A program made the translations under genes and the position numbers. Positions 49,320 through 52,263 of a stretch of DNA of 64,000 nucleotides are shown here, piece by piece. How positions within the stretch are numbered: the stretch's first letter is position 1; each line of letters opens with the position of its first letter. The notes beneath the pieces were generated by a model. That model was not told the DNA's origin. It worked only from the letters and a program-made list of their open reading frames with translations, and did not search any database. The stretch is taken from positions 62,001 through 126,000 of the forward strand of contig MVRC01000006.1 in the NCBI GenBank assembly GCA_002067865.1. The letters run 5' to 3'. This stretch comes from Methanomassiliicoccales archaeon PtaU1.Bin124. Its GTDB lineage: Archaea > Thermoplasmatota > Thermoplasmata > Methanomassiliicoccales > UBA472.

Positions 49320-49649
49320 CTACACCTTTATGAATATGCCCAGCAGCACTATGGCGATGACAACCAATGAAACAAGGACGAACTTGTATTGCTTGGAGTA
49401 GACGAACGCGGCCAAGGCCGTGAGCAGGCGCAGGAACGGCGTAGCGATGAGCACGAGAATTCCCAGCTCCAGCATTGCGATCGGGTTTCCATGGAACAGC
49501 TGGTCCAGCACTTTTTCGACCGGAATGACCTCGCTCGGGACAGGGTCCACGGCATACCATACCAGGCCGACGATCATGATGCCAAGGCTGAGCCACATGC
49601 CGAGACGAAGGACAAGCGATACGATCTTGTTCAGTTGCTCTGGTGTCAT
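49320..49649 (-). CDS. DUF1634 membrane protein
   Basis: This 109-residue protein has three predicted membrane helices (about 10-32, 54-80, 88-108) and matches the DUF1634 layout with LGMWLSLGIMIVGLVWY and GILVLIATPFLRLL. DUF1634 genes are commonly found beside TauE/SafE exporters, as here; the ATG overlaps the exporter stop by ATGA. It is likely an auxiliary subunit. The stop is TAG. Confidence 0.88.
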   Translation of the reverse strand: MTPEQLNKIVSLVLRLGMWLSLGIMIVGLVWYAVDPVPSEVIPVEKVLDQLFHGNPIAMLELGILVLIATPFLRLLTALAAFVYSKQYKFVLVSLVVIAIVLLGIFIKV

Positions 49650-50491
49650 AGCGCCTCCAGCATGCCGAACGCCTTCAGTATCATCAGGATAGCCACGGCG
49701 ATCAGAACGACGGCGAAGAGCTTGCGCAGTGACTTTCCTTGGACCTTATCGACCGTTCTGGTTCCGACCATAGCTCCGAAGATGACCCCGACAGCGACCA
49801 ACGCGCCGAGCACCGGGTCGATGTAACCATAACGGAAGTAGATGACCGCGCTGGCCAAAGCCGTCACGCCAATCATGAAGTTGCTGGTGGCCGTGGCGGC
49901 CTTCATGGGGACGCACATGAACGTGTTCATGACCGGCACCTTGATCACGCCCCCGCCGATGCCGAGCAGTCCCGACAGGCTGCCCGCCCCGAGGCTGGCC
50001 AGCATACCGGTGCGGATGCTCTTGACCCCATAACAGACCTGCATCCCGTTGATCGGGTCCACATACTGGCAGGAGAGGTCCAATAGCTCCCTCTCAGCCT
50101 CTGCAGAGTCCGGCGCGATCATCCTCTCCTTGTGCACCAGCATGTGCAGCGAGCTGTACACCAGGATGATCGAGAATGCCAGCAGAAGGAAGAACTGGTC
50201 GAGGTAGATGGCTATGAACGCCCCGATGATGGATCCGGCCGTTGTGGCAGTCTCCAGCAGCATCCCGAGCTTGATGTTGGCGTACCCCTCGTGAACGTAA
50301 CGGGACGCGGCGCCTGTGGACGAGGCGATCACCCCGACCAGGCTGGCGCCGATGGCCTCCTTGACCCCGAAGCCCAGGGCCAGGGTGAGAGCTGGGATGA
50401 CGATTATCCCGCCTCCCAGCCCGAACAGCGAGCCGAGCAATCCGGCCGCCAAGGCGATGAGCAGCACCGCCAGGACCATCAATAGCTCCAT
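49646..50491 (-). CDS. TauE/SafE family sulfite/organosulfur exporter
   Basis: This 281-residue membrane protein has about eight helices and the paired family signature GLLGSLFGLGGGIIVIPAL (residues 14-32) and GLLGIGGGVIKVPVM (second half). Members move sulfite, sulfoacetate or other small acids. ATG 50491 is chosen: it starts MELLMVLAVLL directly into the first helix; the frame is open much further upstream but runs antisense into the ThiI-like gene. It is translated with DUF1634. Confidence 0.9.
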   Translation of the reverse strand: MELLMVLAVLLIALAAGLLGSLFGLGGGIIVIPALTLALGFGVKEAIGASLVGVIASSTGAASRYVHEGYANIKLGMLLETATTAGSIIGAFIAIYLDQFFLLLAFSIILVYSSLHMLVHKERMIAPDSAEAERELLDLSCQYVDPINGMQVCYGVKSIRTGMLASLGAGSLSGLLGIGGGVIKVPVMNTFMCVPMKAATATSNFMIGVTALASAVIYFRYGYIDPVLGALVAVGVIFGAMVGTRTVDKVQGKSLRKLFAVVLIAVAILMILKAFGMLEAL

Positions 50492-50569
50492 CAAGAATGC
50501 AACAGTGCTCCCTAAGATAATCCTTCCCAGTCGGTAAGGATGAAATATCACCTCGCTCAATCGGCGTGC

Positions 50570-51451
50570 ATGGACCTCATCCTGGTTCGCTACGCGGAGG
50601 TAGGGCTCAAGTCCCGGGGGGTGCGGAAGCGCTTCGAGCGCATCCTCATGGACAACATGCTCTCCATTCTGGCGCATGACGGCGTGGAGGCGCTGGTGCG
50701 GAATGACCAGGGTAGGATATTCGTGCAATCGGCCGACATCGACAAGGCCGTTCGTTCGGTGCAGAAGGTCTTCGGCGTGGCATCGGTCAGCCCGGTCGTC
50801 AAGTGCGGCAGCAACATGGAGGAGATGAGGGCGAGGGTGGCCGAGCTCTCCCGCAACTGGCTGGAGGAGGGCTCCACCTTCAAGATCGAGGCGCGCAGGT
50901 CCGGTTCCCATTCCTATAACAGCATGCAGGCGGCCGCCTCGATCGGTGAAGCCGTCCTTTGGGCCAACGAGGACCGGGGCATCAAGGTCAACATCCACCA
51001 TCCCGACAAGGTCATCTACGTGGAGATCAGGGAGAACATGGCCTATGTCTTCAGCGATTACGTTCCAGGGCCAGGCGGTCTGCCGATGGGCAGCCAGGGA
51101 AAGGTGCTGGCCATGGTCAGGAACGACAGGGATGCGTTAGCGGCCTGGCTGATCATGAAGCGGGGATGCCGCTGCGTGGCCGTGGGAGAGGATGGCCCCT
51201 CCACCGACCTTTTGCGTTCCTGGGACCCCGATATGAAGCTCGTATCGCCTGGCGACATGGTCTCCCTGTCCTATCGGCACAGGGCGGCGGCGGTCGTCTT
51301 CGGCTCAAGCATCGCAGATGAAGATGAGCTGCTTCAGACGGAGATCCCCGTCCCGGTCTTCTACCCCATCGTGGGATGGAGCGAGGACGAGGTGGCCAAG
51401 GGCATCCGTGAGATCAAGGCCGGAAGGCCGGCCCATATCGGCCTCGTCTAG
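50570..51451 (+). CDS. ThiI-like THUMP protein with degenerate PP-loop
   Basis: This 293-residue protein aligns with ThiI, the 4-thiouridine/thiamine sulfur transferase. The N-terminal ferredoxin-like part (VRYAEVGLKSRGVRKRFE) and THUMP domain (about 60-165) are intact, as is the linker GLPMGSQGK near 170-178. The ATP PP-loop that should follow, SGGxDSPVAA, instead reads VRNDRDALAA (residues 183-192), losing every catalytic residue, and the remaining AANH domain is shortened (compare PVFYPIVGW). So it can bind RNA but not thiolate it in the known way. It should be an RNA-binding or regulatory relative. ATG 50570 fits AAATATC about 22 bases upstream; ATG 50540 is an alternative. The stop is TAG. 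Confidence 0.82.
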   Translation: MDLILVRYAEVGLKSRGVRKRFERILMDNMLSILAHDGVEALVRNDQGRIFVQSADIDKAVRSVQKVFGVASVSPVVKCGSNMEEMRARVAELSRNWLEEGSTFKIEARRSGSHSYNSMQAAASIGEAVLWANEDRGIKVNIHHPDKVIYVEIRENMAYVFSDYVPGPGGLPMGSQGKVLAMVRNDRDALAAWLIMKRGCRCVAVGEDGPSTDLLRSWDPDMKLVSPGDMVSLSYRHRAAAVVFGSSIADEDELLQTEIPVPVFYPIVGWSEDEVAKGIREIKAGRPAHIGLV

Positions 51452-51618: not shown

Positions 51619-52251
51619 TTACTTGTTGTGGTGGTCGTGCGCGGCACCGGAGGGACGCATCTTCTCGGCGCCCTTGCCCTTCCAGCGCAGTCCGCGGGCC
51701 TTGTGACCGGCGGATGTCAGGCCACGGTAGGTGCGGCCCTTGTGCTTGTTGCTGCACATCCAGCCCAGCTGCTTGTCGTTGATGATGGCGGGGTGGTGCT
51801 TGTCGATCATGATGATCTCGAACCAGATCCTCTTGCCGTCCTCTCCGACCCAGTAGGAGTTGAGGACCTCCAGGTTGGTGTACTTCTTGGAGGCGCGCTC
51901 CTCGCAGATCCACTGGATGTTCTTTCCCATGGTCAGCTTGTTGATACCCTTCTGCTTGGCCTTCCTGCCCTTCCAGCGCATCTTACGGCGCTGCAGGGAG
52001 CCCTTACGGACATGGCCGCGAACGACCACGACGCCCTGCTTGGCCTTGTAGCCCAACGCACGGGCGCGGTCCAGGCGGGTGGGGCGTTCCACACGGCAGA
52101 AGTTCTCCTCGCGTCTCCACTGCATGAGGCGCTCGAACATCAGGTCATCCACATAAGAATCCTCAGGGCGGTTCCAGGCCTCGGCGATGTACTTGTACAT
52201 GCTCTTGCCGGACACCGGCCTCTTGACCTCATCGGTCGCTTGGTTCTCCAT
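51619..52251 (-). CDS. rpl15e: Ribosomal protein L15e
   Basis: This 210-residue large-subunit protein is archaeal/eukaryotic L15e, recognised by [30 protein letters not shown], the [15 protein letters not shown] segment, [13 protein letters not shown] and [18 protein letters not shown] histidine-rich tail (AAHDHHNK) ends it. ATG 52251 is chosen, with GTG 52260 in frame as a possible alternative. A long structured leader lies upstream. Confidence 0.96.
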
Positions 52252-52263
52252 TGTTATCACGCT

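Follow-up and report, generated by a model that had tools for sequence, protein, structure and literature searches.

The window, a stretch of 64,000 nucleotides from a Methanomassiliicoccales archaeon, encodes a 293-residue ThiI-like protein in which the tRNA-binding domains are retained and the ATP-binding PP-loop has been lost. We propose that it is the subunit that binds tRNA in a split ThiI, a tRNA U8 4-thiouridine synthase made up of two proteins, and we assign this reading a probability of roughly 0.8. The proposal draws on the domain make-up of the protein, the loss of its PP-loop and the conservation of that loss, the presence of a partner in the same genome, the co-occurrence of the two proteins across the class, their exclusion with a fused ThiI, and the adjacency of their genes in some relatives. 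A sequence-only reading of the gene had favored a new role, which is probably not the case, as the protein looks like one half of the s4U8 synthase with the catalytic half encoded on another contig.

Domain architecture of the window protein

The gene and its parts, in window coordinates, are:

50570..51451, + strand: THUMP subunit with a degenerate PP-loop domain, 293 aa; proposed tRNA-binding subunit of split ThiI
50579..50791, + strand: N-terminal ferredoxin-like domain, residues 4-74 (Pfam PF22025; conservation; contacts from PMC4041423)
50810..51058, + strand: THUMP domain, residues 81-163 (Pfam PF02926)
51068..51100, + strand: conserved linker GPGGLPMGSQG, residues 167-177 (alignment of 32 relatives)
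51116..51145, + strand: lost PP-loop site, where VRNDRDALAA (residues 183-192) replaces SGGIDSPVAA
51101..51448, + strand: pseudo-pyrophosphatase domain, residues 178-293 (hhalign against the catalytic-subunit alignment)

Translation from the methionine at 50570 agrees with the start sites of relatives. Pfam searches recovered the ThiI_fer domain (residues 4-74, E 1.5e-16) followed by the THUMP domain (residues 81-163, E 1.7e-15), the latter being the sole match to PF02926 in this genome, and the model of the ThiI catalytic domain, PF02568, aligned with residues 174-205 alone, below its cut-off. Likewise, TIGR00342 matched over profile positions 1-202 of 373 with 141.5 bits, so that the protein by itself lies below the curated full-length cut-off of 264.5 bits; it has the ferredoxin-like and THUMP domains that mark ThiI/TtuI and lacks the SGGxDS of the PP-loop. 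In a phmmer alignment with the ThiI proteins of B. anthracis and T. maritima, the SGGIDS column is occupied by VRNDRDA. The C-terminal domain comprises about 120 residues, as against about 195 in ThiI, and hhalign places the shortfall mainly in the center (about 45 residues). The same method identifies residues 172-293 as a remnant of the ThiI catalytic domain (probability 97.9%, E 3e-13), one devoid of the PP-loop, the catalytic cysteine and the Fe-S cysteines. An AlphaFold2 model (pLDDT 92.7) has PDB 1VBK as its closest structure (TM 0.82), followed by ThiI. Thus, the Pfam, TIGR00342 and phmmer results uphold the initial description of a ThiI-like protein without a PP-loop, including the retention of the THUMP part and the GLPMGSQGK linker, the replacement of SGGIDSPVAA by VRNDRDALAA, and the shortness of the remaining ATP-pyrophosphatase domain.

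Conservation of the PP-loop-less state

The altered loop is not a mutation of this copy alone: SGGxDS is absent from all 32 proteins in a class-wide alignment of relatives that are 32-47% identical to the window protein. When named genomes were scanned, 80 further loci were recovered, every one from Thermoplasmatota-type archaea, Methanomassiliicoccales among them, and at 79 of these the matched open reading frame is intact and without SGGxDS. At the remaining locus, L172, the THUMP subunit runs on in frame into a catalytic domain, and it is the latter that contains SGGxDS (L172:4001-5656); codon 38 of this reading frame is TAG. In this group of archaea UAG may be read as pyrrolysine. This apparent fusion is weak evidence, and an error is likely there, the contig being named with a coverage of 2.95. 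A separate THUMP subunit (L041:1642-2496, minus strand) reads SGGKDG at the PP-loop position, perhaps a vestige of SGGxDS.

Across the 32 aligned relatives, G170, P172 and G177 of the linker and W193, R198, G199, P266 and G269 of the C-terminal domain are invariant. Four basic residues, R7, K14, R19 and R49, are the counterparts of the RNA-contacting R10, K17, R21 and R46 of T. maritima ThiI; the first two are kept in 32/32, R19 in 30/32 and R49 in 29/32. The contacts of the THUMP CCA pocket are more loosely conserved, the equivalent of K104 being alanine in 26/32. Cys200 (window 51167-51169), directly after the KRG motif, is kept in 31 of the 32 THUMP subunits, and the aligned bacterial ThiI and PH1313 sequences have valine at this position; it might play a structural or sulfur-handling part.

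The missing active-site motif and the shortened domain could by themselves suggest an old ThiI gene deprived of its PP-loop in this lineage, through decay or a sequencing error. We consider this hardly credible, given that the same loss recurs with intact frames throughout the class-wide alignment, that C-terminal-domain residues are invariant, and that the gene is found in most genomes of the class. Decay and error were dismissed on the strength of this conservation, and the early judgment that the gene is functional stands. Most of the class has the PP-loop-less form.

A free-standing catalytic domain in the same genome

The host genome (2.2 Mb, 99.8% complete) was searched for a second, intact ThiI. 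No complete one was found in it, and a free-standing, THUMP-less ThiI catalytic domain of 217 residues was recovered at C11:4111-4764. This protein carries SGGIDS and a CVLC motif with a third cysteine, and has both the catalytic cysteine and the CxxC + C of the archaeal Fe-S subclass. It spans TIGR00342 positions 174-371 of 373, which, combined with positions 1-202 of the window protein, gives the two chains together the full ThiI/TtuI domain set. It is the sole full-length match to the ThiI catalytic domain in this genome, in which PF02568 has one other, weak match to what appears from its sequence to be a QueC-like protein. Its AlphaFold2 model (pLDDT 93.5) superimposes on 4KR7 with a TM of 0.90 and on ThiI catalytic domains in general with 0.84-0.90. 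The earlier suggestion of a subunit of another thiolation enzyme is plausible as to the subunit and probably fails as to "another", since the C11 partner points to the s4U8 synthase itself. The two genes lie on different contigs, the catalytic one having an exosome-type (ECR1_N/S1) gene on one side and a PIN-domain gene on the other.

CxxC is present in 27 of 36 aligned partner proteins. The free-standing catalytic subunits that lack it are a minority (L018-L028, L078 and L086-L090), and from these sequences the split form may exist both with and without an Fe-S cluster. The long catalytic open frames at L074-L081 were considered as fusions and rejected, the upstream part being merely open sequence with no second domain recognized.

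Distribution of the split and fused forms

One set of 120 genomes from the class was searched with a profile for each subunit, A1 for the THUMP protein and A2 for the catalytic protein, and with TIGR00342 for the fused form. Fused ThiI was detected in 14 of the 120 (families f14, f18 and f26), and in none of these 14 does the THUMP or the catalytic part also occur as a full-length gene of its own. Among the 106 non-fused genomes, 90 have both separate proteins, 7 the THUMP protein only, 6 the catalytic protein only and 3 neither. Both proteins are found in 33 of the 34 non-fused genomes that are at least 95% complete, the exception being G113. For this co-occurrence Fisher's test gives p ~1e-10, uncorrected for the relatedness of genomes that are not independent, and the number of lineages matters more than this value. 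The roughly 12% of non-fused genomes with one piece only are mostly incomplete MAGs; one-piece exceptions despite high completeness are G113 (97%) and G164 and G229 (93-94%). In family f29, seven genomes carry fused ThiI without any separate gene for the THUMP subunit, and one of the seven, G161, additionally has a partial catalytic piece; in g81, a sister genus in the same family, three genomes have the THUMP subunit and one of them a recognizable partner. The split form is also found in the wider phylum, in other families.

Gene neighborhoods

Two genes flank the THUMP gene in the window, given here as context only:

49646..50503, - strand: TauE/SafE-family transporter, divergent from the THUMP gene
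51619..52260, - strand: ribosomal protein L15e, convergent neighbor of the THUMP gene

L15e is kept convergent to the main THUMP locus across many families of the class, and this neighborhood is old and conserved. No L15e gene was found within the approximately 1.5 kb flanks of the fused ThiI genes, which suggests that the fused genes sit elsewhere. On the other side, the TauE-type divergent arrangement recurs in many Methanomassiliicoccales loci and is kept mainly within that order. The transporter is accompanied by a DUF1634 gene, the pair occupying window 49320-50503 on the minus strand, divergently upstream of the THUMP gene; a link of these neighbors to sulfur is possible.

Direct linkage of the two subunits is seen at four Methanomethylophilaceae-type MAG loci (L142, L154, L155 and L158), where the THUMP gene is followed on the same strand, after a gap of 4 nt, by the catalytic gene, and at L034, where the two genes adjoin divergently. 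Most genomes with a linked pair also hold a second THUMP-subunit locus, and the linked pairs are probably paralogous, existing besides the usual unlinked set. Such adjacency is known from one order only, mostly in these second copies.

A proposed two-chain synthase and its alternatives

In T. maritima ThiI, which dimerizes mainly via its catalytic domains, RNA bound to the ferredoxin-like/THUMP part of one chain reaches the active site of the other, as does Lys17 (PMC4041423), the counterpart of the invariant K14 of the window protein. Because the bacterial dimer acts in trans, the cis site of a tRNA-binding chain would be dispensable if an active partner were supplied in trans, as in Ncs6/Ncs2 (Ctu1/Ctu2). 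We propose that the ferredoxin-like and THUMP domains of the window protein would grip the acceptor stem and CCA end of the tRNA, and that its C-terminal pyrophosphatase fold, incapable of ATP binding or catalysis, would be kept as a docking or dimerization surface. By means of this dead but folded domain, the THUMP chain would dock the active domain in trans: the separate 217-residue partner would bring the PP-loop and, in most members, the CxxC + C that likely holds an Fe-S cluster, and would adenylate and sulfurate U8. All 30 tRNA genes checked have U8. The physical complex of the two chains, its stoichiometry, the Fe-S cluster and s4U8 as the product are inferred. Counting against a split ThiI are the location of the genes on different contigs in this genome, the restriction of adjacent genes to one order and mostly to second copies, the genomes with one piece and the looseness of the CCA-pocket contacts.

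An unlikely alternative gives the window protein a new role as an independent THUMP factor that binds tRNA, such as a chaperone or a partner of another thiolase (NcsA/TtuA, for instance) or of a methyltransferase, and has the free catalytic domain working alone. THUMP proteins can indeed partner other enzymes, as Tan1/THUMPD1 does with an acetyltransferase, and PH1313 has no assigned function in Pyrococcus, which has several ThiI homologs. However, the two separate genes co-occur, both are missing as separate genes where ThiI is fused, they form adjacent pairs in some relatives, and the pseudo domain derives specifically from the catalytic domain of ThiI. We find it quite improbable that the two proteins together thiolate tRNA elsewhere than at U8, or that they serve the thiazole of thiamine instead of tRNA. 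Although s4U9 is known from Thermoplasma acidophilum (PMC5372739), in T. maritima the conserved ferredoxin-like/THUMP module gauges the distance between U8 and the CCA end (PMC4041423); and although bacterial ThiI also serves thiamine synthesis, archaea appear to use another route and archaeal ThiI is taken as tRNA-only (PMC2948915).

If the split synthase is real, it would provide a function for two families that have none, the PH1313-type THUMP and the PRK08349-type PP-loop proteins, would explain how s4U could be formed in most of an archaeal class without a complete ThiI, and would allow the trans-dimer model of ThiI to be tested in a natural system, with tRNA-binding and catalytic roles on separate chains. 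No description of a split ThiI was found in the part of the literature covered by our search; annotation that seeks a complete ThiI would overlook or misname both halves.

Relationship to known systems

The closest solved structure by sequence is that of Pyrococcus horikoshii PH1313 (PDB 1VBK; E 5.5e-31), ahead of the ThiI proteins of B. anthracis and T. maritima. PH1313 has the same domain order in 307 residues, with SGGxDS absent and a shortened pyrophosphatase domain, and the window protein shares this PH1313-type combination of a THUMP domain and a shortened, PP-loop-less domain. It has been called ThiI-like, with its activity unconfirmed (PMC9957541). However, it does not clearly group with the Thermoplasmatota proteins. 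In a tree built from the ferredoxin-like and THUMP domains, all 32 split proteins fall together (79/58, without strong support), close to the family f18 fused ThiI, which from its length and the Thermoplasma literature would bear a rhodanese; PH1313 lies outside, and fused ThiI occupies at least two positions. A joint clade of PH1313 and the Thermoplasmatota split proteins, placed apart in the best tree, was not rejected (p-AU 0.057), and the degenerate state may have had one or several origins. Because a [4Fe-4S] ThiI/TtuI is reported from P. furiosus, the role of PH1313 in Thermococcales may differ from that of a split-ThiI subunit.

The C11 partner resembles NF006222/PRK08349, a free-standing ThiI-like PP-loop protein that NCBIfam names "hypothetical protein", with a score of 193 bits under the model cut-off of 251. 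Compared with ThiI/TtuI (T. maritima 4KR6/4KR7, B. anthracis 2C5S and M. maripaludis), the window protein shares the ferredoxin-like and THUMP domains and the linker, and the partner matches the catalytic domain; ThiI/TtuI is a single polypeptide, whereas the split form comprises two, the THUMP chain being without an ATP site.

Another counterpart is the eukaryotic Ncs6/Ncs2 (Ctu1/Ctu2), in which Ncs2/Ctu2 is a degenerate paralog of Ncs6. These proteins differ from ThiI in belonging to another family, in forming s2U at U34 and in having no THUMP domain. According to PMC10067955, this U34 thiolase is likewise a two-protein tRNA thiolase. It is probable that much of Thermoplasmatota has an obligate two-subunit tRNA 4-thiouridine synthase, in which a pseudo-enzyme binds the tRNA and a free Fe-S subunit carries out the catalysis; this synthase would parallel Ncs6/Ncs2, and PH1313 would represent an orphan structure of one half.
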